A stretch of 64,000 bases of DNA from Ardenticatena maritima (GTDB taxonomy: Bacteria > Chloroflexota > Anaerolineae > Ardenticatenales > Ardenticatenaceae): contig NZ_LGKN01000004.1 of NCBI RefSeq assembly GCF_001306175.1, forward strand, positions 248,001 through 312,000, in the 5' to 3' direction. Shown here piece by piece: positions 37,425-56,940 of the stretch. The notes beneath the pieces are model-generated. The model ran no database searches, was not told the DNA's origin, and saw nothing but the letters and a program-made list of their open reading frames with translations. Made by a program: the position numbers and the translations under genes. The stretch's first letter is position 1, and each line of letters starts with the position of its first letter.

Positions 37425-39944
<2,520 letters not shown>

Positions 39945-40055: not shown

Positions 40056-43000
40056 TTATGGCTGAATGGGCGGGTAGGCGTTTTGCACCAGGATTTCAAA
40101 ATGCTCAGGGAACCAGCGTCCGGCGTGTGGGGCGTTGGGCAATGCCCCCGTTGGGTACGCCGAGTTGTACAGGTTCTGCCCGTTGGGGTCGCACATGCGG
40201 TCGAACTTCTTGTTCGGGTCAACGGGGTCAACAATGCCCGGTTCGCTCACGCCATCCGATTCACCGGGCGGCTTGATCCACACATAGGCGTCAATTCCCG
40301 GCACGGGGCTGGCTTGCGGGCGCTCGCCAATCCCGCTTGCCTGGTTGCACCAATTGCCGCGGTGGTAGCGGCGGTCCACGCGCGACTCATCCACATACAC
40401 GTCCACGTTGGTGGTATTGGTGCTTGGCGCGGTCGGACGGCTGCGCCCATAACTCGACCCACCCCACCCATTGCGGCTGGTGTCAATCAGCATGCCGATA
40501 CTGGACGGGAGGCCTTGCTGGATAAACGCCTGACGCAACGCCTGCGCAAAGTCCAGTTCATCGAAGTAGGGATTCCATTCGTAAAACTTTGCCGAGCGCA
40601 CCGGTTGACCGCCAATGGTAAGGCTGGAATCCGGCAAATACGGCTCTTCCAGCGGCGTGTAGTTCGATACGTTGGTGACGAAGCCGTCAATGCTGTTGAA
40701 CCCATCCGCTGTGCCTTGCACCACCTGCGTGTAGAGCGTGACAGCCTTTTGGAAGTTGTCGCTCCAGCCCAACCAGCCTGAATGCGCAATGTCGAGGTAG
40801 ATGTACACATTCGGCAACTGGTGGAGCGTGTCAATGGCGTACTGAATCCCCTGCACATAGGCGCCCGTCGCGTCGGCTTCGGCACATGCCGGCACAGAGA
40901 GATTCGTCACCAAGTTGGGCAACGAGTCCGGCTCGATAATGGCCACAATGCGCAAATCGCGATACTGCGGTTGGGCGAGGATGTTATAAATCACGTCAAT
41001 GTAGTCGGTTTTGTAGCGTTGCAGCCCATTTTCCGCGATGAGCAGTTCACCATTCGAGGCGTCCGCAGCACAGTCGCGGTTGGGCAAATCGTAAATCACG
41101 ATGGTGATGAGGTTCGCCCCTTGCGCCAGGGCTTCATCCAGATGCCCCTGCAAGCCACGCCCTTCGGTAATCGCGCCGATACGGTCCAGCCACACAGCGG
41201 TTGAATACTGCGCGACTTTGGCCATTTTCTGCCCAAGCACGCCCCCCGTCTGCTGCGCCTGGTTCAGCACATTCGCCGCCCAATCCGGGTTGACGTACCA
41301 GGTCGCGCCGACAAAGGGGTTATCCAGGTGCGTGCCGGGGATAGGCGTAGGCGGCACACTGGTGGGTGTCGGTGTCGCCGGCGGCTGTGTAGGCGTAGGC
41401 GTGGCCGGCGGTTGGGTGGGCGTGGGTGTGGGCGGGGTCGGCGTGCCTGCCGCGCCATTGCACGGCTGCCCGTTCAGCGTGAAATCGGTCGGTGTGGGGT
41501 TCGCGCCGCTCCAATTGAGGTTGAAGCCGAACGTAACCGAGCCGGCCGGCGCAATGGTGCCATTCCACCCAACATCGCTCGCCGTCACAACTGCGCCGCT
41601 TTGTGAAAGCGTGACGTTCCACCCGTTCGTAATCTGCTGGTTGCCGGGGAAGGTCCATGTCAGCGTCCAACCGTTGATGGTGGCGCTCCCCGTGTTCGTG
41701 ATGGTTACGTCCACCGTCGCCCCGCCCGACCACTCGTTGCGCACCACGTAGTCCACGCGGCAGGCGGTTTCGCCGACGGGCGGCGGCGTGGGCGTGGCTG
41801 GTGCTGGCGTGGGTGTCGCCGGCGGCTGTGTGGGCGTGGGTGTGGCCGGCGGTTGGGTCGGCGTGGGTGTGGCTGGTGCAGGCGTCGGTGTGGGGGTCGG
41901 TGATGCCGGTGGTTGGGTGGGCGTGGGTGTGGGCGGGGTCGGCGTGCCTGCCGCGCCATTGCACGGCTGCCCGTTCAGCGTGAAATCGGTCGGTGTGGGG
42001 TTCGCGCCGCTCCAATTGAGGTTGAAGCCGAACGTAACCGAGCCGGCCGGCGCAATGGTGCCATTCCACCCAACATCGCTCGCCGTCACAACTGCGCCGC
42101 TTTGTGAAAGCGTGACGTTCCACCCGTTCGTAATCTGTTGGTTACCGGGGAAGGTCCATGTCAGCGTCCAACCGTTGATGGTGGCGCTCCCCGTGTTCGT
42201 GATGGTCACGTCCACCGTCGCCCCGCCCGACCACTCGTTGCGCACCACGTAGTCCACGCGGCAGGCGGTTTCGCCGGCGGGCGGCGGCGTGGGCGTGGCT
42301 GGTGCTGGCGTGGGTGTCGCCGGCGGCTGTGTGGGCGTGGGCGTGGCCAGCGGTTGGGTCGGCGTGGGTGTGGCTGGTGCAGGCGTCGGTGTGGGAACCG
42401 GCGTGATGCCGCCGCCGAAGAATTCGCCATAGAGCGCATTGGCCAACGCCACATCAACCTGCGCCCAGAAACGGTGATAGCGGAATTCGGGCGCTGGGCC
42501 GCCGTTCAAGTAGGCTTCGACCTTCGGCCAATCGGGGTCTTGCGTGTACTTGGGGCGCAACCCCAAGAACGTCACACCCGGCTGAATTGTAGCGCCCTGC
42601 GCATTGGTGCCACTCCACCCTGTGGGGATAAAGACTTCATCACCAAAGCGGATGTAGTCTTCGCGCACTTCGGGCACCGAAACGCCCTTGTCGTCGCGGT
42701 ACAACGTCCACATGCGGTCCAGCAATTCTTTTGCCAGCAATTGCGACTCTGTGTCGCCCGTTGCCGCGGCGTAGTAGATCAGCGCCTTTGCCAGCGCCGC
42801 CGTGACGCCCACGTCTTTGTTGTAGGCGACAACGGTGACGTGCAAGTTGTTATTCGGCCCCGGATTGGTCGGGTTCCACGGGTCTGGTTGCCCACTCCAT
42901 TCAAGCGTCACGGGGATTTCATAATCGCCGTTGGGCAACAGATGCACAACACTCTTGATCCACGCCACCCATTTGTCCATGACTTCGCCGGCACGCTGGT

Positions 43001-45167
43001 CGCCGGTCAGGTAGTAGTACTCCGCCACGCGCTCCATAGACCAGGCTTGCCACCCAAACCAGGTGTTGCTACCGGGGTCGTGATAGACCGGATGATCGTC
43101 ATACGCGAGACCATAGAATTCGGAGACACCCGCCGGGCGTGGGTCGTAGCGTCCGTTCCAGGAGTTTGTCGCACCACCGGCAATCGCCCCTTCCGCCGAT
43201 TGGAGCCAGCGGTAGAATTCGATTTGGCGGTCCATGCTCACCGCCCAATCTGTTGCGCCGTTGGGCGAAGCCGGCTTGAACGCAGGCACCTGGCTGAGCA
43301 CCCATGCCGCGACGGGGTTTTGGTAGCCAAAGTGCACATGGCTGGAACCGATACGCCACGCCCAACCACCGCCGCTCACAGGACCGCCCCACGAGTAGTA
43401 CCACGAGAGCAGGTAGTGCGCGCTGTCATAGCCGGTTCCCGCCGGGCAATTGGGGCTTTCGCACCCAATCGTCTTGAAGTACTTGTCAAAGAAAGCGTAG
43501 CGCAGGTAGTCGCCCATTTTGGCGGCTTTGGGCACCAGGCTATCCACCAAAGGCGAACCGCCCTGCGCGTCAGCCCAAACTTTCGCCCAATACATGGCTT
43601 GAATGGCGCGGGCGTCGGCGTCAGGTGCGTTGGTGTAGCGGTACTGCTGGGCATACTGCCAGCCCTGCGGTTGTTCAATGAAGAGGTCGAGGAAGCCATT
43701 GGGGCCGCCCCAGTTGAAAGCTTCCCACGAGGGATGCGGAACCGTTTCCCACACCGATTCCTCTGCACCGCGCTGAAAGGTGTTGATGTACGAAGGCGCG
43801 GTGGTACCATCGCCACGTTGCCCGTAGCCGTACCAGTTATCAACGTCCAGCAACCAGTGCATGCCGTAGATGTCCGACGTGCCATACGTTTGGGCGAGTT
43901 CGTTGCAGATGGGGTCGTCCCCAACGCTGACATTCGGGTCAAGCGGCACAGGGTAATCGCTGGGGGCGTCCCCTTCGGGCGCGTACGAGGCTTTGTAGGC
44001 GCAATTGTTGCTGGGCTGGTCTTGGTGCGAGGGGATGATGTACGTCTCCATGTTGTTCCACGCATCCGCCAGATACGACCAATCCCCCGTCACGCGGCCG
44101 TACATGGCTTCCAGCCAGAGCCAGTAGCTGTACGCTTCGCTGGTGGTTTCATGCCCGTAGTCGGGCGCTTCGACAATCAGCGTTTCGACGGAGTGATAGG
44201 GAATGCCTTGCGGGCTGAAATACCCATTCGCGGGGTCGTGAATCTCATTCCACAATTCCAGGAAGCGGGCGACGTATTCGTTCGTCGGCGGTGCTCCGCC
44301 GCCATTCCCCGGCGGTGTGGCGGTTTGTGTTGGAGCGACTGTGGGCGTCGCCGTCGGCTGTGCGCCCCCACCGCCGTTGACGGTGACCGAGAACCCACTA
44401 CTTGCCAAACCAGTGCCCCCCTGCCAAATCTCAAAGCCGGCTTCGATGGCGTGCAAATACCAGGACGATTGCACATATCCACGCTGGATGGCATCGTTGA
44501 TGAACGCCAAAATGTCGAGGTTGGTGACACTCTGCGTCGGCGTGGTACGACGATACGCAATGTAGTGCCAATCAATGGGCGTGTACCAGACTTCCCACGT
44601 CGCGCCGTCAATCGTCACCGTGTCAACAACCGCCCCCGCCGGCTGGACGCCGCCATTCCAATCCAGCCAAATCATGATTTCAGCGCCGCCGTTGTAGCCA
44701 TTCGTGGTATCAAGCGAGGGACTGAGCCAAATATCGTACGCCACATTCCAGGCGCCGCTGTTGACAGTGGTGATTGACCAATCGCTGGTGACACTGCTCA
44801 ATTGCGCCACCGGCACCGACAACCCACTGTTTTGCGTGCAGTTGCCCCAATGGCACCCCTGCACAATCGAAGGATAGGCGGCGGGTGCGCCATTTGTGGG
44901 GTTGTTGTGCGCCGATTGCGTCACAACAAAATCACCTGTGGCATCATTGACTTCGATACACTGGGCTGTATCGGCGCCCCACACATTGTTTTGCACGTAG
45001 AATGTGCCGCCGGCCGCCCAGGTGTAGCCCCATTTTTCGCACAATTGAATGGTTGCCCCCTGGACAGGCGCAACAGCACCAAACGCAATAAAAGACAGGA
45101 AAACGATCAGGAGAAGGTGGATGAGCGGGGACGGTTGGCGTATTGGACACCAGTTGCTTTGCGACAT
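40056..45167 (-). CDS. Trimodular secreted cellulase GH12-GH48-CBM2-CBM2-GH6
   Basis: 1703-aa exported enzyme with three catalytic domains. Signal peptide about 1-37. GH12 endoglucanase 38-265: nucleophile E163 (AEIMIWLDW) and acid/base E246 (FEIWQGG). GH48 reducing-end cellobiohydrolase 297-918, with the acid-bearing motif [14 protein letters not shown] at 332-345. Pro/Thr linkers separate CBM2 967-1069 and CBM2 1134-1236. GH6 domain 1279-1703: D1360/D1365 (YDLPNRD), proton donor candidate D1414 (EPDS) and D1638 (KPPGESDG), most like non-reducing-end cellobiohydrolases. One chain therefore joins endo, reducing-end exo and non-reducing-end exo activity around two cellulose anchors. All catalytic residues checked are intact. 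Confidence 0.95.
41441..42442. repeat. 501-bp tandem duplication (CBM2 plus linker)
   Basis: The segment starting at 41441 recurs 501 bp later at 41942, covering a whole CBM2 and most of the adjoining linker. By eye only about six bases differ over some 480, so the duplication is recent or kept uniform by gene conversion. It is in frame (167 codons). Confidence 0.9.
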
Positions 45168-45358: not shown

Positions 45359-47011
45359 TTACCGGCAGGGCTGCCCGTTGAGCGTGAAGGTGGTCGGCGT
45401 CGGGTTCGCGCCGTTCCAATTGAGGTTGAAGCCAAACGTGACCGAGCCAGCCGGCGCAATCGTGCCGTTCCAGGCGGCGTTGGTGACTGTCACGCTCGCA
45501 CCGGTCTGCGTGTAGGCGCCGTTCCAGAGGTGCGCAATCTGCTGGTTGCCGGCGAAGGTCCATGCCAGCGTCCAGCCAGTGATGGTGCTGGCGCCGGTGT
45601 TCGTGATGGTCACGTCCACCGTCGCGCCGCCAGGCCACTCGTTGCGCACCACGTAGTCCACGCGGCAGGCGGTTTCGCCGGCGGGCGGCGTGGGCGTCGG
45701 CGGCACAGGGGTCGGCGTGGGCGGGACGGGCGTGGGGGTGGGTGTTGATGGCGGCAGCGTCGGCGTGGGCGTCCCCGGTTCAGGTGAAGGCGTCGCCGGC
45801 GGCGTGACGCTCCCTTGCCCAATAAGCGGGTACTGAATCGTTTCCAGCAAAGCCTGTTTTTCAGCGTGCACAGTCGTCCAATCATCCAGCAAAATGCCGC
45901 CGGTATCGCCCGAATTCGGGTTGAGCGACCAGAATGTCCAACTCAGCCCTTTCTGCTGGATATAGGGCAAAAACTTTTGCAGCCATTGCTTGTCGCTCTC
46001 ATCCACGTAGCGCGTGCCAAATTCACCAATCAGCAGGGGGGCTATGTTCTCGTTATAAATGTAGCCCCAGTAATGGTCCCACACCGCCGGCAAATTGTCA
46101 GGGTAGTTGGGGTCCGAGAACCACTCTTGTGGGAACACCGAGGCGGGGTATTCGTGTGGCGAATAGACCAGACGGTTGGGCACATTCAAGCGCACAGGAT
46201 ACTCGCGCACGCCCAGCAAATTGCCACCCCACCAGGTGCAATCAGCGTCTTTCCAGGGGTCGTTCTCACCACCAGGCCCATAGCATTCCACGCCTTCAAC
46301 GATAATCAGCAAATCGGGGTTGATCGCCAAAATGGCGTTTCCAGCACGCTCCGCCGCCAGCCGCCAATCACGCGCTGGGTCGCCACAGCCCCAACAAGCA
46401 TCGTCGTGCGGCTCGTTGCGCAAGTCAACCGCAACCACGGTATCGTTTCCGGCATAGCGGCGCACCAGCATTTCCCAGTCGGCGATCCAGCGACTCTCAG
46501 GGTAATCGGCGGTGTACCAAAGCCCACCTTCTTGCGCACTCGCCCCCGCATTGGAGCGGTGGTTATCCAAAATCACCTTCAAGCCCCGTTGTCCGGCGCC
46601 TTCGATAATCTTGTCCATAATTTCCAGCGAGGTCAGTCCCACCAAATCGGGGTTTTTGGAGTAATCAATCCCCGTCGGCATGGTGCCCGGATTCAGCACC
46701 TCATTGGAAAAAGGCAAGCGAATACTGTTGTAGCCCAGCGCTTTGATTTGATCGAGCACCTCTTCCCAATTGCGCGACCACAAGCCATGCACCACGTTGT
46801 TGCCCGTCTCAAAGCCAAACCAGTTGACCCCGCTAAACGCCACCACATTGCCATTGGCGTCGCAAATTTGGTTGCCGCATGTATGCAAATAACCGCTGGT
46901 TGCCGCTTTGGCAGACGGCAGCGGTGCCGAAGCCGACCAGCCCAGAAGCCAGGCGCTCCATACCACTGCCATCACGACCATACAGGCGTAGCGCCATGAA
47001 AAAGACCGCAT
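45359..47011 (-). CDS. Secreted GH5 endoglucanase with CBM2
   Basis: 550 aa from ATG 47011 (GAGGGGG upstream; the longer in-frame extension has no signal peptide layout). Signal peptide about 1-37 (cut near AKAA). GH5 TIM barrel about 38-395 with acid/base E200 (VAVDLRNEPHDD) and nucleophile E330 (LLIGEFGTRY). Pro/Thr linker 403-443, CBM2 447-550 with bracketing Cys. Expected to cut internal beta-1,4 bonds of cellulose. It has its own terminator and upstream element, so it is transcribed separately from the protease gene before it. Confidence 0.95.
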   Translation of the reverse strand: MRSFSWRYACMVVMAVVWSAWLLGWSASAPLPSAKAATSGYLHTCGNQICDANGNVVAFSGVNWFGFETGNNVVHGLWSRNWEEVLDQIKALGYNSIRLPFSNEVLNPGTMPTGIDYSKNPDLVGLTSLEIMDKIIEGAGQRGLKVILDNHRSNAGASAQEGGLWYTADYPESRWIADWEMLVRRYAGNDTVVAVDLRNEPHDDACWGCGDPARDWRLAAERAGNAILAINPDLLIIVEGVECYGPGGENDPWKDADCTWWGGNLLGVREYPVRLNVPNRLVYSPHEYPASVFPQEWFSDPNYPDNLPAVWDHYWGYIYNENIAPLLIGEFGTRYVDESDKQWLQKFLPYIQQKGLSWTFWSLNPNSGDTGGILLDDWTTVHAEKQALLETIQYPLIGQGSVTPPATPSPEPGTPTPTLPPSTPTPTPVPPTPTPVPPTPTPPAGETACRVDYVVRNEWPGGATVDVTITNTGASTITGWTLAWTFAGNQQIAHLWNGAYTQTGASVTVTNAAWNGTIAPAGSVTFGFNLNWNGANPTPTTFTLNGQPCR

Positions 47012-47046
47012 ATTGTTCCCCCTCTTTGTTCTTGTGTTGTTGCTGT

Positions 47047-47060
47047 GCAACGGCCGTTGC
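47047..47060. promoter_or_regulatory. 14-bp palindrome at the GH5 promoter (operator candidate)
   Basis: GCAACGGCCGTTGC, lying immediately downstream of a TATAAG box at 47063-47068 and so over the expected transcription start, a classic repressor position. Confidence 0.4.
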
Positions 47061-47067
47061 CGCTTAT

Positions 47068-47096
47068 ACAGAAGAAGGTTTTTCCGAAAAAATACA
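47068..47096 (-). promoter_or_regulatory. Two-block upstream element, copy at GH5
   Basis: Minus strand TGTATTTTT, 14 bp, TTCTGT, then ATAAG. About 57 bp upstream of the GH5 start. Confidence 0.5.
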
Positions 47097-47108
47097 TCAT
47101 TCTGTAAA

Positions 47109-47139
47109 AGAAAAACGGCCCGTTTTGCAACGGACCGTT
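47109..47139 (-). terminator. Terminator after the subtilase gene
   Basis: 11-bp stem AACGGTCCGTT/AACGGGCCGTT (one G-T pair), loop of 4, T run on the minus strand. Confidence 0.85.
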
Positions 47140-47160
47140 TCATTGAAAGACGAGTTATGT

Positions 47161-49161
47161 TTACTGCGAGCAAGGCGCTCCATTCAAGGAAAGCCCGGCG
47201 GGCTCAAATCCGGCCGCATTTCCTTGAAGCGTAAATCCAAAGGAGACATACCCGCCGGCAGGTACAACATGGTTCCAATCTGCATTGGTGACCACAACAT
47301 GCCCCCCATTTTGCATAAACGAACCGTTCCACATGTTGGTGATGAGCGGGACAGACGCCCCCCAATCCCATTCAAGCGTCCACCCATCCACATCAGCCGG
47401 CTGGTTGTTGGTCACCACGGCGTTCACCGTTGCACCACCATCCCAACTTGATTCAACCGTGAATGTGACGGTGCAGGCATTCGCGTTTGTCGGCTGCGCC
47501 GGTTCTTGCCCCCACACCAGACGCCCGTCATAGTACACGGTGACACGTTCCCACTCCTGCCACGTCACCACATCCGCCCCAAAGGAGTAATCGTTGGTCT
47601 CATCCTGGGCGCTCCATTCAGCATCATGCACATTCACCTGAATGAACTCACCGTCGCCAACAGCCTTGCCGCCATAGAGCAAGCCAGCCCCATCTGTAAA
47701 GCCAACCTCAACAAACGTGTGTCCATCTGTTGTTTGCCCGGTTGCAACCGTCACATTCTCATTGCCCTGGGCGGCATAGTCCACTACGGCCTGCAAAGCA
47801 TGCGCCGTTTCCGGCGTCAACCAGTAGCGAATGCGTAGTGCACTGTATGGAATCGTGCCGCCATCATTCACAAGACGAAACTGTGGGACAATCGTGGTGG
47901 TATCCCAAGCGGTATCTCCACGGCGATACTGCAACCGCACAGCGATATCCGTTTCGCCGCGCGCCTGCAAGAGGGCGTCATACAGGTCAATGCGCTTTGC
48001 TTCAGGGTGCTGCACCAGCGGACGCCCTGTCTGGCGCAGGGTGTTCACGACACACGCCACATCACACCCCGGCACGGAACGCAAAAGCGCCGCCGCACCA
48101 GCCGCAAAAGGCGTTGCCATGGAATTGCCGCTCCACACGGCATAGCCGCCATTGTAGTATGCCGAGAAAATCTCTCGCCCAGGGGCGTACACCTCCGCGA
48201 CGCCATTCTGGAACGTCGAAAAGTCGGTGAGCAGGTCGTAGCGATCGGTAGCCCCAACAGAGACCACGCCATCATACAGTGCGGGATACCCCAGCACGTT
48301 GACGCCGCCCGCCGCTACAATCAGAACACCGTGCGCCTGGGCATATGCGACGGCCGCTTGCAAAGCCGGCGCATCTTCAGGCCCATGCCCGCTCAAATTG
48401 ATGATGTCGGCGCCATGATCAACCGCGTAGAGAATGCCTTGAATAGCGTCGAAGTACGAGCCGCGACCATCGCTATCGAAAATGCGCACAGGCATGATAC
48501 GTGCATCAGGAGCGACCATCGCCACAATGCCGGCCACATGCGTACCATGTCCTGCGGCTTCATCAATCGCCCCATCCCCATCCTGGTCAATGCCATTGGG
48601 GACATCGTCCGGCAGAGAGTCCCCATCAATCACATCGTAGCCCGGCACAAGCTTGTCCACCAGCAAGGGGTGATCCAGGTCTACGCCGGTATCCAGCACC
48701 GCGACCACAACGCCCTGCCCGGTTGCCAGCTGGTGCGCTTTGTCCAAACGCACCACGCCACGCGCCCACTGGTCGCCATATTCTGCGGGAACACCGTCAA
48801 AGCCAATGTAGCGAGGCTGTGCCGTAAGCGGCGCACCATCAAAACCAATGTACCGCGGCTGACTATCAAGGAGCACATCACGGCTCACGCTGAGCACACG
48901 CGCATCCGACGCAAGTTGTGCGCCCACATCGGCACTCGCCTGAAGCGCAACCAATGCAAGGGCTGGCACTTCACCCACCACCGCAACACCATACTCAGCC
49001 GCCAAGCCTGCCCCATCGACACCCGGCGCAAGGGTCACTAGCCAGGTGTATGTCTCAGGTGGCGCATCAGCCAAAACGTGCGCGGGTCGCCCCCATACGC
49101 ATACGCCCAGCACAAGCACAACCAAGCCCAACAAACGCCCCCAGACCCGTCGAGAGACCAT
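47161..49161 (-). CDS. Secreted subtilisin-like protease (S8) with CBM3 and CBM2 modules
   Basis: 666 aa from ATG 49161 (AGGAGGG upstream). Signal peptide about 1-32, an I9-like propeptide about 38-97, then the motif QPRYIGFDG twice (101-109, 115-123). S8 domain about 130-400: D157 (VAVLDTG), H208 (GHGTHVAG), S347 (GNSMATPFAAG), and a Ca-binding type loop DQDGDGAIDE. The oxyanion Asn appears as AAGGVN (N288), two residues later than the usual AAGN. Residues 405-553 look like a CBM3 and 561-664 like a CBM2. The cellulose-binding tail would hold the protease on plant fibres or near the cellulases. Third gene of the 172-aa/CHAT operon. Confidence 0.9.
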   Translation of the reverse strand: MVSRRVWGRLLGLVVLVLGVCVWGRPAHVLADAPPETYTWLVTLAPGVDGAGLAAEYGVAVVGEVPALALVALQASADVGAQLASDARVLSVSRDVLLDSQPRYIGFDGAPLTAQPRYIGFDGVPAEYGDQWARGVVRLDKAHQLATGQGVVVAVLDTGVDLDHPLLVDKLVPGYDVIDGDSLPDDVPNGIDQDGDGAIDEAAGHGTHVAGIVAMVAPDARIMPVRIFDSDGRGSYFDAIQGILYAVDHGADIINLSGHGPEDAPALQAAVAYAQAHGVLIVAAGGVNVLGYPALYDGVVSVGATDRYDLLTDFSTFQNGVAEVYAPGREIFSAYYNGGYAVWSGNSMATPFAAGAAALLRSVPGCDVACVVNTLRQTGRPLVQHPEAKRIDLYDALLQARGETDIAVRLQYRRGDTAWDTTTIVPQFRLVNDGGTIPYSALRIRYWLTPETAHALQAVVDYAAQGNENVTVATGQTTDGHTFVEVGFTDGAGLLYGGKAVGDGEFIQVNVHDAEWSAQDETNDYSFGADVVTWQEWERVTVYYDGRLVWGQEPAQPTNANACTVTFTVESSWDGGATVNAVVTNNQPADVDGWTLEWDWGASVPLITNMWNGSFMQNGGHVVVTNADWNHVVPAGGYVSFGFTLQGNAAGFEPAGLSLNGAPCSQ

Positions 49162-49203
49162 ACAAAACCCTCCTTCGCTCCTCACACAAGACATTGCAGC
49201 CTC

Positions 49204-52137
49204 TTATTGAGGCCATTGAGGTCGATAAAACGGATTCCCCATGACAACGAAGGGCGCCCAGTAATAGGGGTGTGGATACCACTCACGGAGAACATGCTGA
49301 GCATGCCGCAAAGCACTGGCAACAGGCATTCCCGCCGCTAACGCCGCATAAAATTGCTTCATCAACTTGGCTGTCGAAATATCATCAACCATCCAGAGGC
49401 TTACAACAACTGAACGCGCCCCCGCCGCAAAGAAGCCGCGGCATAACCCCACCAACTCATCACCAACCGCCACATGCGCGCGTCCCGTTTCACAGGCGCT
49501 CAAGGTCACCAAAGGCGCCATGGTCTGCATTTCGTACACATCGCTGACAAAAAACCAGCCATCTGCCAACTTCAAGGCCGAAAAGAAAGGATTGTCCGAG
49601 CGAAAAACAGCATGCGTGGCCAGGTGCAAGCACGCCGGCGTTTGCGTCAACTCACGCAGCACATTGAGCGTGGCCGTATCGCCCACATACGCCGTTGCCT
49701 CGGGAAAAATGTGCCGCACAAAATTGACTTCGGCCTCAACATAGGGAACGGAGGCGTCGTGTATGCCGAGAAGAAGCGGAGGTTGTTCCACATGCGTGGG
49801 GAAGTCCTGAACCGTGTGGCAAAACAGGGTTGCACTTGGCGCATACGTCACAATATGTTGATCCAGGAGATACGTTTCACCATCCGGCGTCAAAGCGTGG
49901 AAGGGGATATAATGGAAAAGACCGTGCGGTACAATCACCAGGGTTTCAATGCCATCAAGCCATGTTTCAATAGGGGCTATCAGCGCCGCATACAATGTCC
50001 GCAAATCACGATGAACCGCTTCCCATAAAATGTGCTGATACCGTTGCCGATACTCGGTACCATACCCGAATTTATTGAAAGTAAACCGCAAATGCTGCAA
50101 CGTTTCTTTGAGCGTGTCCATGTCAACGGAGAGCGAACGGGAGACAACCTGCTCATGGGTGATGCCAAACAGAATAACCTCACCCTCGCGGCTTATGTAA
50201 AATTCAAGGAGCGCACTCTTTGGGGGTAATGCTTGCTGAACGTCTTCGACGCGCACCGTCCAAACCGGATTGCGCGGCGTTGCCGCCATTTCGGGCACAT
50301 GCCAATGTTTCAGCAAGCGCGCCAAACGCGCTTCACGGTCGGCAATCGCCGACATCAAGGTCGAGACCGGTTGGGCTTCGCGCATGCCGCTTTCCATCAC
50401 CGTTTCGTAAAAGCGGTTGTAGTACCAATGCAACTCGCGCTTGAGGTCATCCATTTGCCGCCAGAGCGTCTTTTCATGGGGCGAAAGGTGTTTGTGCTGG
50501 CGCACCCGTTTTTCAAGCGAAAGGCGTGTCAACAAATCCAATAACGCACGCGATTTTGCCCGCTCAATACCCGAAAACGCTTCACGCTGCGCCTGCGGCG
50601 TTTGTTCTTCCAGGCAAAACTGCACAAATTTGTCGTACACGGGCAATTTGTCTTGCAAAAACGCCATTTGATACATCTCACTCTGCAAGCCCGCGTACAT
50701 TTGCTCGATATGCGCAATGGCTTGTTTGTATGCCCGTTCCGCCTGGCGGCGTTGTCCCCGCCGATGCGCCACCTGCCCCAACCCAAACGCTCCACGATAC
50801 GCCACGGGAAACACGCGCGCCATATCAACACGCTGAAAATGCGCCTGCGCTTCGTCAAGGTCATTGTCCGCTAGCGCCATTTCTCCCAGCAGCACATCAC
50901 ACTCAGCAACGCGCCCAACCACACCATAGTCGGCAAACCGCTCACGAGCCGCCAAGACATACGTCCGAGCGTCTTCCCAAGCCCCCTTGCGCCACAGCAA
51001 ATAGGCGCGATGCAAGTCGGCAACCGCGCTCCACAGCACATTGCCCTGCTCACTGAACAGGGCTTGCGCCTGGTCGAGCGCCTGCAATGCGGCACACACA
51101 TCACGCAGATGCGCCACCGCAATCGCTTCGTTCAACCACAAGCGCGCCGCCTCCCAGTTCATGGCATGCGCTTCAAAACAAGCGCGCGCCGCTTGCGCCG
51201 TCTCTAACGCTTCATGCCACAGATTGAGCGCCAGATAACAATCGCTGCGATGCAAATCCACATAGGCGACTTCCACAGGCAACGCTTGTTCCTCAAAGAC
51301 AGAGCGCGCTTGCTGCAACAAGCGGAGCGCCGACTGGTATTGCCCCTGGGCGAAGGCCAGATACCCCATGTTCACATCAATCTGCGCGACCACCCGCGAT
51401 TCGCCGGTATCCTCAAAATAGCGGCGGGCTTCACGCAGGAGCGCAACAGCTTCACGAAAGGCGTTCAATTCGGCGTGCACATTGGCATCGTTGATATTAA
51501 CAATCATCAACCGACGCCAATCCCCCAACGCTCGGAAGGCTTCGCGCGCACGGGCATAACACTGACGCGCCTCCTCAAAACGCCCCAAACGCGCGAGCAC
51601 ATTCCCCCGATTCGAGAGCACCTTGGCAAGCCGCGCCTGATCGCCCACACGCACAAACACCTGCTCTGCTTGCGCAGAATAGTGTAAAGCCTGCTCATAG
51701 TGGCCGAGGTACAAAAGTGCATCAACATACCCCACCGTCACCCGCGCAACCGAGGCGTCGTCTCCGCGCTGGCGGTGAAGGGCAATCGCTGTCTCAAAGC
51801 ACCCCACCGCCTGCTCATATTTCCCCAAATGGCGGAAGGCTTTGGCGCGCGTATAGGCGCTTTCTGCACGTACAGCGTCATCCTGCCAGACGCGCGCGCA
51901 GGCATCGAGAACATCGGCAAGTTGCAACGTGAGGTGTGGATTGAGGCGCTTTGTGCGCTCGACGGCGTCGTGTATCTTCGTCAACAACGCTTCATCCGGC
52001 TGGGGAACGTGGGTGCGCAACCACGCACACCGCGATTCCAAATCGGCTAAATCGAGGAGCGTTTGCACGGTGGGGTCTTCTATTTCGATATGGTCTTCTG
52101 GATTCATCGCCACTCGGATACCATCAACACTCAGCAC
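49204..52137 (-). CDS. TPR-CHAT caspase-like protease
   Basis: 977 aa, no signal peptide, so cytosolic. Residues about 60-480 are tetratricopeptide repeats (Ala/Tyr-rich helical pairs such as HLGKYEQAVGCFETAIALH), the middle is helical, and the C-terminal about 300 residues form a CHAT domain. The caspase-type dyad is H842 (LHLATHA) and C882 (TLSACETG), both intact. CHAT proteins are clan CD peptidases switched on by their TPR partner surface. Start taken at GTG 52137 (GAAAGAG upstream); ATG 52107 is an alternative. Lies 31 bp after the 172-aa gene and 42 bp before the CBM-subtilase. Confidence 0.92.
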   Translation of the reverse strand: MLSVDGIRVAMNPEDHIEIEDPTVQTLLDLADLESRCAWLRTHVPQPDEALLTKIHDAVERTKRLNPHLTLQLADVLDACARVWQDDAVRAESAYTRAKAFRHLGKYEQAVGCFETAIALHRQRGDDASVARVTVGYVDALLYLGHYEQALHYSAQAEQVFVRVGDQARLAKVLSNRGNVLARLGRFEEARQCYARAREAFRALGDWRRLMIVNINDANVHAELNAFREAVALLREARRYFEDTGESRVVAQIDVNMGYLAFAQGQYQSALRLLQQARSVFEEQALPVEVAYVDLHRSDCYLALNLWHEALETAQAARACFEAHAMNWEAARLWLNEAIAVAHLRDVCAALQALDQAQALFSEQGNVLWSAVADLHRAYLLWRKGAWEDARTYVLAARERFADYGVVGRVAECDVLLGEMALADNDLDEAQAHFQRVDMARVFPVAYRGAFGLGQVAHRRGQRRQAERAYKQAIAHIEQMYAGLQSEMYQMAFLQDKLPVYDKFVQFCLEEQTPQAQREAFSGIERAKSRALLDLLTRLSLEKRVRQHKHLSPHEKTLWRQMDDLKRELHWYYNRFYETVMESGMREAQPVSTLMSAIADREARLARLLKHWHVPEMAATPRNPVWTVRVEDVQQALPPKSALLEFYISREGEVILFGITHEQVVSRSLSVDMDTLKETLQHLRFTFNKFGYGTEYRQRYQHILWEAVHRDLRTLYAALIAPIETWLDGIETLVIVPHGLFHYIPFHALTPDGETYLLDQHIVTYAPSATLFCHTVQDFPTHVEQPPLLLGIHDASVPYVEAEVNFVRHIFPEATAYVGDTATLNVLRELTQTPACLHLATHAVFRSDNPFFSALKLADGWFFVSDVYEMQTMAPLVTLSACETGRAHVAVGDELVGLCRGFFAAGARSVVVSLWMVDDISTAKLMKQFYAALAAGMPVASALRHAQHVLREWYPHPYYWAPFVVMGNPFYRPQWPQ

Positions 52138-52168
52138 TGGCAGACTCTTTCACATTGCGTTGGTTGAT

Positions 52169-52687
52169 TCAAGCAGTCCCCTCAGCAGGAAACGCCTGCA
52201 CATCCAAAGGTTCAACAACGATATCGCGCGTTTCAAGCAATATACGCATGGCGTATGTCCCGGCGGGAACAAGCGTCAGCCGAAAGTAGCCCATTTCATC
52301 CAACAGTACACGCCGATACACTTCGCCGCCCGCAAGCAATTGCACTTCTGTTCCCTCCAACGCCGCCACATCGCCGTCTCGCGGCAACACTTGGCCATGC
52401 ACGGTAAACATCCCTTCTTCTTCCTCTTTGAGAATCTGGACATCAATATCCATGTCGTCCAGCGAGAACAGCGTTTGGCGCTCTTGCAAAGCACCACGCA
52501 CGCCGGAAGGCGCCATACGCGACCAACTGTCAAACGTCAAAGATGCTGTGCTCACCAAACGATCCTGCAAGCGTGATTGATGCCGCTTGAAGGATTTCAA
52601 CACACGTTTGAGCACATCGGGCGGCGGGTCAATCCATTCCTGTCCCTCAAATTCAGGGTCTTCAAACGGGTCATGTGGCGCGGGCAT
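52169..52687 (-). CDS. 172-aa sigma-neighbour protein with carboxypeptidase-regulatory-like domain
   Basis: No signal peptide. N-terminal half is acidic then helical (DPPPDVLKRVLKSFKRHQS), with TLFSLDDMDIDVQIL before a beta-rich C-terminal domain (about 92-165: GMFTVHGQVLP, LEGTEVQLL, GYFRLTLVPAGTYAMRI) like the regulatory Ig-type domain of carboxypeptidases. I do not know a described function; its place between an ECF sigma gene and a TPR-CHAT protease suggests an adaptor, anti-sigma factor or protease substrate. Confidence 0.8.
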   Translation of the reverse strand: MPAPHDPFEDPEFEGQEWIDPPPDVLKRVLKSFKRHQSRLQDRLVSTASLTFDSWSRMAPSGVRGALQERQTLFSLDDMDIDVQILKEEEEGMFTVHGQVLPRDGDVAALEGTEVQLLAGGEVYRRVLLDEMGYFRLTLVPAGTYAMRILLETRDIVVEPLDVQAFPAEGTA

Positions 52688-52747
52688 GTGTCTTTTCCTC
52701 CTTGCTTCGCATCCTTCTCACACGCCGCCGCTCCCCTCCTCATTTCA

Positions 52748-52776
52748 ACAGAGCGCAACCGCGTGCGAAAAATACA
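52748..52776 (-). promoter_or_regulatory. Two-block upstream element, copy at the 172-aa/CHAT operon
   Basis: Minus strand TGTATTTTT, 14 bp, CTCTGT, right after the sigma-factor stop codon and about 60 bp before the 172-aa gene. Both blocks and the spacing are the same as in the GH9 copy. Confidence 0.5.
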
Positions 52777-52784
52777 TCTTTGCC

Positions 52785-53387
52785 TCATGAATTTTCGGGT
52801 TTTGAGGTTTTTTCTTCTTCCATATCGGTCAGAATACGCCGCAACTTTTGCAGGCAACGACTCCGCGTCGGGCCAATGCTCCCCAACGGCATGTCAAGGA
52901 GTTCCGCAATCTCTTGATACGAAACCCCATCCTCTTCGTCAAAAAACAACAGCGCCAAAAGTCGGCGGCAACGCTCATCCAGGCGCTCCAACGCCTCTCG
53001 CAGAAGCTGTTGTTCTTCGCGCCGCATGACACGCTCTTCAACACGCTCTGGGTGCACCACAACAACATCCTGTATGTCGAGCATGGGCGCATCAGGCTGT
53101 GTGCGATACCGACGAATACAAACGCGCCGTGTCACGGTCATCAGCCACGATGAAAGCCGCCGACGATTTTGCAAGGTGTGCAGTTTTTCCAGCAAAATCA
53201 AGCAAACCTCTTGAAAGACTTCGTCGGCCACATGCTGGGGAAATCCAAATCGCAGGGGAATGGTGTAAATGAGGCGCGCATAGCGGTTGATGAGTTCTTC
53301 CCACGCGGCTTCATTGCCTTCCAGACAGGCTTGTACAAGGTCTTCATCCGAGCACGTCTCAAATGCCATCTGTGAAACCGTTTTCAT
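52785..53387 (-). CDS. ECF-like RNA polymerase sigma factor
   Basis: 200 aa from ATG 53387 (AAGAGG upstream). Sigma region 2 about 15-95 (AWEELINRYARLIY, ADEVFQEVCLILLEKL, LSSWLMTVTRRVCIRRYR) and region 4 about 130-187 (DGVSYQEIAELLDMPLGSI with the helix-turn-helix). Regions 1 and 3 are missing, as in extracytoplasmic-function sigma factors. No transmembrane anti-sigma gene is adjacent; instead a 172-aa cytosolic protein and a TPR-CHAT protease follow. Confidence 0.93.
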   Translation of the reverse strand: MKTVSQMAFETCSDEDLVQACLEGNEAAWEELINRYARLIYTIPLRFGFPQHVADEVFQEVCLILLEKLHTLQNRRRLSSWLMTVTRRVCIRRYRTQPDAPMLDIQDVVVVHPERVEERVMRREEQQLLREALERLDERCRRLLALLFFDEEDGVSYQEIAELLDMPLGSIGPTRSRCLQKLRRILTDMEEEKTSKPENS

Positions 53388-53443: not shown

Positions 53444-53472
53444 AGTATACCGCACTCACGGCGGAAATTCAA
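53444..53472 (-). promoter_or_regulatory. Sigma-70 promoter of the ECF gene
   Basis: Minus strand TTGAAT, 17 bp, TATACT, about 57 bp upstream of the start. It does not carry the two-block element, so the sigma gene itself looks housekeeping-driven. Confidence 0.65.
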
Positions 53473-53599
53473 CCACTTGAACAGCCCAATGTGGGCGTTC
53501 GCTCGCTTCCCACTCCCGCATCTCTTTGTGTCCGCAGAAAACCTTACCAACGTTTTTTCAACCTGTAAATGCGCTTTTTCTCCAATTTTTTCGGGGCGC

Positions 53600-53643
53600 T
53601 TGCAGGGCTTTTCCCCCTCGCTCAAGGGGCGAAAGCCCCGCAA
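53600..53643. repeat. Imperfect long hairpin between the divergent sigma and STAND-SARP genes
   Basis: TTGC..GGGCTTT..CCCCT pairs with AGGGG..AAAGCCC..GCAA. It fills part of a 322-bp divergent intergenic region that otherwise holds the two promoters and nothing else I recognise. Confidence 0.4.
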
Positions 53644-53650
53644 AACCCAC

Positions 53651-53679
53651 TTGCCACAGCCCAAAGTCTGCACTATCCT
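53651..53679 (+). promoter_or_regulatory. Putative promoter of the STAND-SARP gene
   Basis: TTGCCA, 17 bp, TATCCT; the start codon follows only about 30 bases later without a clear ribosome site. Confidence 0.5.
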
Positions 53680-53709
53680 CTTCACACACAAACCCACACC
53701 CAGCCAATC

Positions 53710-56700
53710 ATGAGCGAACTCTGGCTCATCCACAGCAAACTGAAGCCGCCGCGCTTTCGCGCCCCGCTGCTCACACGCGAGGCACTCTTCGACCGCCTGG
53801 AAGAAGCCCGCCGCCACACGCTCACCATCGTGCAAGCCGGCGCAGGCGAAGGCAAAAGCACAACCCTGGCGCTCTTCGTCACGCAGTCCACGCTCCCCTT
53901 TGCCTGGTACACACTCGGACCAGAAGACGCCGACCCGCTCGTTTTCTGGTCGCACTTGGCGGCGGCGCTCGATAGCGTGCGTCCGGGTATCCAAGCAACC
54001 TTGCACCCCCTGCTTGTTCGTGCCCGTCAGGGTGAATTCCCGTGGGGGCTGATTGCCGAAGCCCTTGCCAACGCCGCCGAACAGCCCCCCACCGACTGCC
54101 TGCTCGTGCTGGACGACATTCATCACCTCGACGACCATCCCGAAACAGTGCGCACCTTTGAGCGCTGGGTGAGCCTTCTGCCGCCGACACTGCACCTCAT
54201 CATCACCACCCGCCGACGCCTCACCTGGCCAACCCTCACGCGCTTTCTGGCGCAACGCCGCGCATGGCTCATCACCGAATCCGAATTGCGCCTGACCAGC
54301 GCCGACATTGCCGCGCTGTTTGCGCACCACGGCATCCGCCTGCGCCCCGACCAGTGCGAGCAACTTTACAACGCCACCGAAGGCTGGATCATGCCGCTGC
54401 AACTGCTGGCCGCCCACCTGCGCGGCGCCACCGCCGAGCGCGTTGATGAAGCGCTCCCCAACCTTGCGGCATCGCTCGATATGCTGGGCGACTTTCTCAT
54501 GCACACGCTCATCGCCCCACTCCCCGCCTCGCTCCAACAATTTTTGTTCGACACCGCCATTTTGCGCGTGCTGGAACCCGCCGCCTGCGACGCCGTGCGG
54601 CGTCGGCGTGATAGCACCGCCCTTCTGGCGCAACTCGCCGATATCGGGCTCAACCTGGTGCAGATTGACGACCAGACCTATCGCCACCACCACCTTGTCC
54701 ACGAATTTTTACAGCAAGAAGCCCAACGCGACCCCGTGCGCTGGCGGCTCTTGCACCGCCGCGCCGCCGCCTATTTTGCCCAGCATGGGCAGGCCGAAGA
54801 AAGCATAGACCACCTGCTTCAGGCGGAAGATTACGAAGCCGCCGCCCACGGCATGAGCATCGTTGCGCCCCGTTTGCTGGCGGAAGGGCGTTTCGCCCAC
54901 CTGCGCCGCTGGCTGAACGCCCTGCCCGACGCCATTCGCGACGCCTGGCCCGACCTGCTCCTCATCCAGGGCGACGTGGCGCGCTTCACCAGCCGCTACG
55001 ACGACGCCCTCGCGGCATACCGCCGCGCCGAAACCTGCTACCTCGCCCGCGACGACGCCATCGGGCAAAGCCAAGCGCTCAAAAGCCAGGCGCTCGTTTA
55101 CATTGACACGGTTCACCCCGCCCCCGCCGAACAACTGTTGAAGCAAGCCTTGCGCGTTTTACGCCGCGAAGCCCCCACCGAAAGCGCCGACCTGCTGCAA
55201 CTGCTGGCGGAAAACGCCACCAACCGCGGCCGCCCCAACCTGGGCGCGCGCTGGTACGCCGCTGCACGCCGCCTGGGCGCTCCCCCCAACACCGAACTTG
55301 AAGCCCGCATCCACCTGCGCAGCGGCCGCCTCGACGCCTGCCGCACCATTCTGACAGACCAGCACGCCGCCACCCCTCACCGTCCCGCCCGCACCCACCG
55401 CGAACCGAGCCTCTTGCTCGCGTTCGTAGACGTTCTGCAAGGGCGCACCACATCCGCACGCCAACGCGCCGCCGACGGGCTTGCGCTGGCGCGTCGGCTG
55501 CAATCCCCATTCACCGAATCGGTCGCGCATATGCGGCTGGGGCACGCCTGGCAACTGCCCCCGCTGGCGGACATCGCGCGCGCGCAACGCCATTACGAGC
55601 ACGCCATCCGCCTCAACCGCGAACTGGCAATCCTGCGGGGCGAAGCCGAACCGCTTTTTGGGCTGGCATTCTTGCACGCGCACCACGGCGCCCCCGCCAC
55701 CGCGCTGGAAGCCGCCGACCGCGCTATTCGCCTGGCACTGCGTGCCGGCGATGAATGGGTAGCCGCCATCGGGCACTTGGCGCGCGGCATCACCCACGCC
55801 CTGCACACCACCCCCGAAGACGCCGCCAGCGCCTTACACGAAGCCCTGCACCGTTTTGAAACCTGCCACGATATGTTTGGCGCCGCCATGGCGCACCTCT
55901 GGATGGCATGGACAGCCTATCACACCCACGACCCCGACACGTTCGCCGAACATGCGCCGCACTGGCTTGCCTACGCTATCACCGCCCCCGAACACCTGCA
56001 CGCCGCCACGCTCTTTGGCCTGCGCGACCCCCAAGCCTACATCCCTCTGCTCATCCATGCGCGCGACCACTTGCTGCCCCCGGCGGCTGAGCGTGCACGC
56101 GCCCTTTTGCGCCAAACAGGGCTCCCCGCCGACATCGCACATCATCCGGGCTACACGCTGCATGTGCGGCTCTTTGGTCCGTTCGAGGTCTGCCGCGGCA
56201 AGCAGCCGGTTCCCGCCGACGCCTGGCGACGCGCCAAAGCGCGCCACCTGTTGGGACTGCTCGCCCTGCACCCCACCCCCTTGCAACGCGAAGTCCTGTT
56301 CGAGCACCTCTGGCCTGACACGCCACCCGATAACGCCGAAACGCAATTGAAAGTCACGTTGAACGCCCTCGCCAACGCCATTGAACCGGAACGGCCACGC
56401 CGGGCTGGCACATTTTTCATTCACCGTGAAGGAAACACCATCGCCATCCAGCGCGACGCCGTCGTCTGCGACGTGTGGCTGTTTCAAGACCTCATCGCCC
56501 GCGCCGAAGCCGAACCCGAAGCGGAACGCGCCATCGAGTTGCTCGAACAAGCCCTGGCGCTCTATCGCGGCGACGTGTTGCCCGAATGCCGCTACGAAGA
56601 ATGGGCGTGGCCGCATATCGAGCGGCTGCGCCTGCAAGCGGTACGCGCCGCGGAATGGCTGGCACGCCTCTACCTGACACGGGGCGACGCCGAAGCGGCC

Positions 56701-56940
56701 ATTGCCAGCGCCGAACGTGCGCTGGCGCTGGATACCTGTTGGGAACCCGCCTATCGCATTGCCATGCGCGCCTGCGCCATGTTGCACCGTCGCCCGCACA
56801 TTGTGCGGCTATACCGCCGCTGCCGGGAAGCGTTGCAACGTGAGTTAGGGGTTGCGCCCATGCCGGAAACAACCGCGCTCTATGAGGCATTGGTGGGATA
56901 TGCACATGATGCCAACAGGGGAGGCGTGGATACGCCGTAA
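53710..56940 (+). CDS. MalT-like STAND ATPase with TPR region and C-terminal SARP domain
   Basis: 1076 aa from ATG 53710 (MSELWLIHSKLKPPR matches the usual MalT-type N-terminus). Nucleotide-binding motif VQAGAGEGKSTTL near residue 46 and Walker B LLVLDDIHHL near 133, followed by a winged-helix and long TPR-like array. Instead of the LuxR helix-turn-helix of MalT, the last 260 residues are a SARP module: winged helix (LHVRLFGPFEVCRG) plus BTAD ending in CREALQRELGVAP. Ligand-gated activator by analogy; the target may be the divergent sigma/cellulose island. Confidence 0.9.
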   Translation: MSELWLIHSKLKPPRFRAPLLTREALFDRLEEARRHTLTIVQAGAGEGKSTTLALFVTQSTLPFAWYTLGPEDADPLVFWSHLAAALDSVRPGIQATLHPLLVRARQGEFPWGLIAEALANAAEQPPTDCLLVLDDIHHLDDHPETVRTFERWVSLLPPTLHLIITTRRRLTWPTLTRFLAQRRAWLITESELRLTSADIAALFAHHGIRLRPDQCEQLYNATEGWIMPLQLLAAHLRGATAERVDEALPNLAASLDMLGDFLMHTLIAPLPASLQQFLFDTAILRVLEPAACDAVRRRRDSTALLAQLADIGLNLVQIDDQTYRHHHLVHEFLQQEAQRDPVRWRLLHRRAAAYFAQHGQAEESIDHLLQAEDYEAAAHGMSIVAPRLLAEGRFAHLRRWLNALPDAIRDAWPDLLLIQGDVARFTSRYDDALAAYRRAETCYLARDDAIGQSQALKSQALVYIDTVHPAPAEQLLKQALRVLRREAPTESADLLQLLAENATNRGRPNLGARWYAAARRLGAPPNTELEARIHLRSGRLDACRTILTDQHAATPHRPARTHREPSLLLAFVDVLQGRTTSARQRAADGLALARRLQSPFTESVAHMRLGHAWQLPPLADIARAQRHYEHAIRLNRELAILRGEAEPLFGLAFLHAHHGAPATALEAADRAIRLALRAGDEWVAAIGHLARGITHALHTTPEDAASALHEALHRFETCHDMFGAAMAHLWMAWTAYHTHDPDTFAEHAPHWLAYAITAPEHLHAATLFGLRDPQAYIPLLIHARDHLLPPAAERARALLRQTGLPADIAHHPGYTLHVRLFGPFEVCRGKQPVPADAWRRAKARHLLGLLALHPTPLQREVLFEHLWPDTPPDNAETQLKVTLNALANAIEPERPRRAGTFFIHREGNTIAIQRDAVVCDVWLFQDLIARAEAEPEAERAIELLEQALALYRGDVLPECRYEEWAWPHIERLRLQAVRAAEWLARLYLTRGDAEAAIASAERALALDTCWEPAYRIAMRACAMLHRRPHIVRLYRRCREALQRELGVAPMPETTALYEALVGYAHDANRGGVDTP

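Follow-up and report, generated by a model that had tools for sequence, protein, structure and literature searches.

A four-gene unit of Ardenticatena maritima encoding an ECF sigma factor, an anti-sigma family protein, a TPR-CHAT protease and a subtilase: a possible protease-controlled sigma switch

Locus and question

Can a caspase-like protease control a bacterial sigma factor outside a CRISPR system? This question is raised by a locus of Ardenticatena maritima (Chloroflexota), located in a stretch of 64,000 nucleotides (NCBI RefSeq assembly GCF_001306175.1, contig NZ_LGKN01000004.1, positions 248,001 to 312,000 of the forward strand), which is called the window here and to whose first letter all positions refer. 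For the output part of the type III-E CRISPR (clustered regularly interspaced short palindromic repeats) system Craspase, which consists of Csx29, Csx30 and CASP-sigma, release by cleavage has been proposed (PMC10028731). An earlier note on this DNA compared that output with three genes of the window, encoding an extracytoplasmic function (ECF) sigma factor, a protein of 172 amino acids (aa), and a tetratricopeptide repeat (TPR)-CHAT protease with the residues H842 and C882. These genes were confirmed to be contiguous on the minus strand. The conserved unit consists of four genes and not of three, transcribed on the minus strand in the order ECF sigma factor, 172-aa protein, TPR-CHAT protease and subtilase. 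Profile comparisons indicate that the family of the 172-aa protein, hereafter the adaptor, is very probably of the anti-sigma kind.

Gene content of the unit

The ECF sigma factor (52785..53387, 200 aa) possesses regions 2 and 4, with matches to Sigma70_r2 (7.5e-13) and Sigma70_r4 (2.9e-7) in Pfam and to sigma70-ECF TIGR02937 (3.1e-26) in NCBIfam. Its closest solved relative is SigW, in the SigW-RsiW complex 5wuq. The adaptor gene follows at 52169..52687. The third gene (49204..52137) encodes a TPR-CHAT cysteine protease homologue of 977 aa when read from GTG (CHAT PF12770 1.9e-62, TPR_12 1.5e-27). Its CHAT domain contains both catalytic residues, H842 (codon 49612..49614) and C882 (codon 49492..49494), a numbering that presupposes translation from the GTG at 52137; an ATG at 52107, ten codons in, may be the true start. 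Among 62 aligned CHAT rows, all 50 that reach the catalytic region keep the histidine and the cysteine. The closest solved CHAT domains are those of DdvA (8rot, 3.4e-6) and of the type III-E TPR-CHAT protein Csx29. The fourth gene (47161..49194) encodes a subtilase of family S8 (PF00082 1.8e-42) with an N-terminal signal-like segment and C-terminal carbohydrate-binding modules CBM3 and CBM2 (CBM_3 2.1e-8, CBM_2 2.4e-22).

The gaps between the genes measure 97 bp (sigma factor to adaptor), 31 bp (adaptor to CHAT) and 9 bp (CHAT to subtilase), and the subtilase is probably part of the same operon as the other three genes. A sigma-70-like promoter, TTGAAT-17-TATACT, was found by a scan upstream of the sigma gene (53444..53472, minus strand), and a terminator-like hairpin of 13 pairs lies directly 3' of the subtilase (47112..47141, minus strand), at the likely operon end. 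Both are weak evidence, since such matches were no commoner than in shuffled sequence. The search for an autoregulatory ECF promoter motif in the upstream regions of 53 sigma genes found no bipartite pattern at the count threshold.

Recurrence in other phyla

A search for the sigma family was performed with three query sequences against 84,980 species genomes, and of the more than 553 loci the 80 best were taken. These loci were selected by sigma similarity and not by gene context, so that the fractions given here describe the near family; fractions by phylum are based on draft genomes and a simple in-house gene caller. The 80 loci belong to Chloroflexota, Acidobacteriota, Planctomycetota, Actinomycetota, Thermomicrobiota and other phyla. 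A CHAT gene is located downstream in 44 of the 63 loci with at least 3.8 kb of downstream sequence, and the adaptor is present in all 44. Where the downstream sequence extends for 7 kb or more, which applies to 32 CHAT loci, an S8 subtilase follows CHAT in 27. Two further loci, both from Acidobacteriota, possess the permuted order CHAT, S8, sigma factor, adaptor (L109:3694-9203 and L119:3741-9206). The recurrence in unrelated phyla, including this permuted order, rules out a chance arrangement, and the reordering of the same four genes means that their linkage outlived rearrangement. In the sigma tree, whose bootstrap is not yet settled, the window sigma factor groups with those of the CHAT-linked loci L058 and L136 (support 99/95).

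More distant relatives with double zinc-finger adaptors, here class B, are present in the genome of A. maritima itself, on contigs C5 and C3. One locus (L019:7383-8899) encodes a divergent sigma-like protein and a double zinc-finger adaptor with no adjacent CHAT gene; the other (L024:8434-12103) encodes a zinc-finger adaptor and a TPR-CHAT protein with no adjacent sigma gene.

The adaptor belongs to an anti-sigma family

The direct search of the PDB with the 172-aa protein alone gave no match up to E 10, and the searches of NCBIfam and PADLOC with the adaptor gave nothing useful. The profile of the adaptor family, by contrast with the single sequence, matched the anti-sigma factors RsiW (1.5e-7), DdvA (3.4e-5) and ChrR (3.7e-4) in the PDB, followed by weaker matches to RskA and to another membrane anti-sigma chain. 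At the N-terminus, the family has the domain typical of class I anti-sigma factors, formed by helices 1-3, in a zinc or a zinc-free form. CHAT-adjacent relatives of the 172-aa protein have a longer N-terminus, which bears this anti-sigma domain. The zf-HC2 domain was detected in 25 of 48 relatives, and the zinc motif H-x3-4-C-x2-C in 33 of 50 CHAT-linked adaptors; the stricter pattern H-x3-C, found in 19 of the 50, was too narrow.

Similar to RsiW, ChrR and RskA, the adaptors combine a three-helix bundle with helix 4, have a zinc motif in most relatives, and are encoded adjacent to a sigma gene. They differ from these class I proteins by a carboxypeptidase-regulatory-like C-terminal domain and by the CHAT partner, and the window copy also differs by the absence of helices 1-3. 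The C-terminal domain, a beta-sandwich of the CarboxypepD_reg / SdrD_B-like type, is present in 27 of the 48 relatives. In the window protein it comprises residues 69-163 (52199..52483, minus strand), where PF13620 scores 9.2e-5, below the cut-off, and AlphaFold2 predicts beta strands. No transmembrane segment was seen in the CHAT-linked adaptors (highest 19-residue hydropathy 1.6), which are apparently soluble. Related sigma genes without CHAT mostly precede a gene for a longer protein that is anchored in the membrane and has a similar, anti-sigma-like domain.

An invariant arginine as candidate cleavage site

The 50 CHAT-linked adaptors agree without exception at three alignment columns, which correspond to R64, G98 and F135 of the window protein. 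The equivalent of R64 (codon 52496..52498, minus strand) is also invariant in the set of 48 rows and, at a greater distance, in class B, where the rows L041 and L051 represent a wrong reading frame and carry no weight. Profiles of the non-zinc class A adaptors and of class B, built with no shared sequences (A6 vs A7), aligned their arginine motifs with each other (E 3.7e-22); the comparisons A4 vs A1 and A6 vs A1 share sequences or mix classes and were not used.

In the AlphaFold2 model, R64 is located in the coil of residues 58-68, between the segments H54-57 and E69-76, ahead of the beta-sandwich, and G98 and F135 sit in strands of the sandwich. The predicted local distance difference test (pLDDT) dips at this coil (block mean 74, between 85 and 97), so that confidence is lowest here, with confident parts on both sides, and the model of the L058 adaptor shows a matching dip at R159. 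An invariant residue in a predicted flexible inter-domain loop resembles a protease site, which makes R64 a candidate P1 residue for cleavage by CHAT.

The same invariance could be read as a partner switch without cutting, in which active or TPR-bound CHAT grips the beta-sandwich and pulls the adaptor off the sigma factor, with the arginine as a binding residue. Binding is a frequent mode of TPR proteins, and G98 and F135 in the sandwich equal R64 in invariance. Nevertheless, a pure scaffold has no need of the catalytic pair that every covering CHAT row keeps, and R64 lies in the loop, outside the sandwich core. We consider this explanation unlikely.

The reduced inhibitor of the window copy

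The window adaptor lacks helices 1-3 of the class I anti-sigma factors; its residues 1-20 are unstructured and it has no cysteine. The AlphaFold2 model (pLDDT 87) consists of one helix (residues 23-38; 52574..52621, minus strand), a strand pair, the loop and the beta-sandwich. In the alignment of the family profile with RsiW, which reaches profile position 78, the segment containing this helix lies opposite the C-terminal portion of RsiW, that of helix 4. The open reading frame has 182 codons, with only 10 upstream of the start, and leaves no room for the approximately 60 missing residues. The location of the missing domain between the genes, or its transfer to the sigma factor or to CHAT, was considered and rejected, since the 97-bp gap is too small and no additional domain is present in either neighbour.

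According to the nearest relatives in the sigma tree, both states occur side by side: L058 has a full anti-sigma domain of the zinc type and L136 a reduced one. The latter (L136:3574-4119), from an uncultured Anaerolineae bacterium, is a second adaptor without helices 1-3.

Class I anti-sigma factors contact sigma4 through helices 1-3 and sigma2 through helix 4, and the majority of coupled contacts lies in helix 4 (PMC7406223). With a helix-4-like segment retained, the remnant could still block sigma2. We see about even odds that inhibition of the sigma factor persists in the window copy; it may be weaker, reliant on CHAT as co-holder, or lost.

The last of these outcomes can be extended to a separate explanation, in which the 172-aa protein is only a substrate or regulator of CHAT, and the sigma factor is controlled by its expression level or by direct CHAT cleavage. 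The three-helix bundle is cleanly lost in the window and in L136, the gap to the sigma gene is normal (97 bp, against a family median of 84) and the open frame upstream is limited to 10 codons. On the other hand, the protein retains the helix-4-like segment together with R64 and the beta-sandwich, and in its class helix 4 makes the majority of the coupled sigma2 contacts (PMC7406223). Had the function gone, decay of the remaining protein would be expected. Loss of the anti-sigma role in the window copy is therefore improbable in our judgement.

Comparison with known systems

DdvA of Myxococcus xanthus is the closest characterised relative in design. According to PMC4374960 and PMC12288465, it combines anti-sigma and CHAT domains in one chain of 991 aa and inhibits DdvS. 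Similar to the DdvS-DdvA structures (8rlz, 8rot, 8rw5), the window unit pairs an ECF sigma factor with a protein whose family profile finds the anti-sigma domain of DdvA, and the CHAT domain of DdvA is the best solved match of the window CHAT domain (3.4e-6). DdvA is one chain and, by its title, transmembrane, whereas in the window the anti-sigma family protein and CHAT are encoded by two genes, as separate and apparently soluble proteins, with the addition of the beta-sandwich and of a subtilase gene.

For the actinobacterial group ECF54, the review PMC8999054 (citing Huang 2015 and Casas-Pastor 2021) names conserved neighbours of three kinds, namely carboxypeptidase-(regulatory-)like, subtilase and CHAT, and reports a proposed regulation by proteolysis, with no anti-sigma factor. 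In the window, the sigma gene likewise has carboxypeptidase-like, subtilase and CHAT genes as neighbours, a match by context alone, and an ECF54-like gene context is also found in the Actinomycetota loci L101 and L121. The carboxypeptidase-like protein described there apart from any anti-sigma factor belongs here to an anti-sigma family; the "carboxypeptidase" of the ECF54 description probably corresponds to the CarboxypepD_reg domain found in the adaptor. New in this work is the assignment, by sequence profile, of the carboxypeptidase-like neighbour to a soluble anti-sigma family.

Both the unit and the Craspase output comprise a TPR-CHAT protease, an inhibitor protein and an ECF sigma factor. 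The window CHAT protein scored 61.5 bits against the NCBIfam model of Csx29, with the CHAT part only and a cut-off of 300, and the best score in a genome-wide search was 64.1. The earlier note had been careful not to claim homology of the 172-aa protein to Csx30, and rightly so: no Csx30 chain was among the PDB matches of the protein or of its family profile up to E 10, and no Csx30 model was compared directly. Neither gRAMP/Cas7-11 nor Csx31 was found among the annotated neighbouring genes, with no dedicated gRAMP/Cas7-11 search. Three cas1 genes are present in the genome (G000), on contigs C3 and C5 and thus on other contigs than the unit, and nothing links them to the four-gene locus. By family the unit is not Craspase, because Csx29 is below the cut-off and Csx30 has no match; plausibly, it shares the logic of the Craspase output without being Craspase.

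Proposed mechanism

The gene set, its conservation, the intact catalytic pair, the anti-sigma homology of the family and the invariant arginine in a predicted loop are established. Binding, cleavage, the cleavage site, the signal and the targets we infer in the following way. The N-terminal anti-sigma domain of the soluble class I adaptor would hold the ECF sigma factor, and the C-terminal carboxypeptidase-regulatory-like beta-sandwich would presumably serve as a handle for TPR-CHAT. A signal in the cytoplasm, for which the TPR part is the probable sensor, would activate CHAT, and CHAT would cut the adaptor within the loop that surrounds the invariant arginine (R64 in the window). The cut would part the sigma-binding portion from the beta-sandwich, weaken the inhibitor and free the sigma factor. 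By analogy, precedents are Csx29-Csx30-CASP-sigma (PMC10028731) and DdvA as an anti-sigma factor with a CHAT domain. For the model as a whole, a cytoplasmic switch of sigma factor, anti-sigma factor and protease with a secreted protease in one operon, we see about even chances.

A more general claim is more tentative and, in our estimate, somewhat short of an even chance: that a CRISPR-free, Craspase-like switch exists in at least six phyla, in which cleavage of a soluble anti-sigma factor by CHAT, at the invariant arginine, sets an ECF sigma factor free, with class B, the double zinc-finger adaptors, using the same arginine, and some members, like that of the window, reduced to helix 4 and the protease handle.

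Several results weigh against the proposed switch. With both adaptor models, Foldseek retrieved no solved structure below E 0.001, and the best hit covered a short stretch of the beta-sandwich. The profile of the non-zinc adaptors alone gave weak anti-sigma matches (DdvA 0.0025-0.011, RsiW 0.03). The anti-sigma helices 1-3 are missing in the adaptors of the window and of L136, and since the three-helix bundle is lost, the hold of the window copy on its sigma factor is less certain than in its relatives. R64 could be a structural or binding residue instead. In Craspase, the cleavage site of Csx30 shows no conservation between orthologs (PMC11106740), so that this precedent would not lead one to expect an invariant site. 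The role of the exported subtilase is left unexplained by the switch. As to the comparison drawn in the earlier note, the subtilase has no counterpart in the Craspase set of PMC10028731, and the genetic association is already known as the ECF54 context (PMC8999054). The Craspase-like analogy of the earlier note thus holds in part: it gained from the anti-sigma domain in the relatives, the conserved gene set and the invariant arginine in the predicted loop, and it lost by the missing helices of the window copy, the additional subtilase and the earlier report of the association.

The subtilase also bears on the role of CHAT. An N-terminal hydrophobic stretch is present in 32 of 37 subtilases of the unit; being exported-looking, they are more likely output than part of the switch. 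The exported-looking S8 proteins would also fit a conflict or cell-death operon, in which the sigma factor would serve to express no more than its own operon, and CHAT, as an effector, would attack other proteins together with the subtilase; CHAT and caspase-like proteases are frequent in conflict systems (e.g. PMC8195603, PMC7159879). PADLOC, on the contrary, found no defence-system match for the adaptor or the sigma factor, its matches for CHAT and S8 were all of a generic kind, and the lasting linkage to an anti-sigma protein favours signalling. An effector role of CHAT is accordingly rated as very unlikely.

If the sigma/anti-sigma/protease switch is true, caspase-like control of sigma factors would be a common design of bacterial signalling, with Craspase as one RNA-triggered case and not a peculiarity of CRISPR. 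The view of ECF54-type sigma factors as lacking an anti-sigma factor would be corrected. Experimenters would have a small soluble system of four genes with a named candidate cleavage site, and the reduced inhibitor of the window would be a natural experiment on how far a class I anti-sigma domain can be trimmed and still suffice. The unit raises the further question of what the TPR part senses.

Neighbouring genes

Divergent from the unit, a large regulator with a BTAD domain, an ATPase-like region and TPR repeats is encoded at 53569..56940 on the plus strand. Directly downstream of the four-gene unit, a cellulase cluster is located on the minus strand. It includes a multi-domain cellulase of 1703 aa (40056..45167) with an unusually rich set of domains, namely GH12, GH48, two CBM2 and GH6, as well as GH9-CBM3-CBM2 and GH5-CBM2 cellulases (37425..39866 and 45359..47173). 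The window subtilase has CBM3 and CBM2 like these neighbouring cellulases, and is possibly a cellulose-targeted protease.

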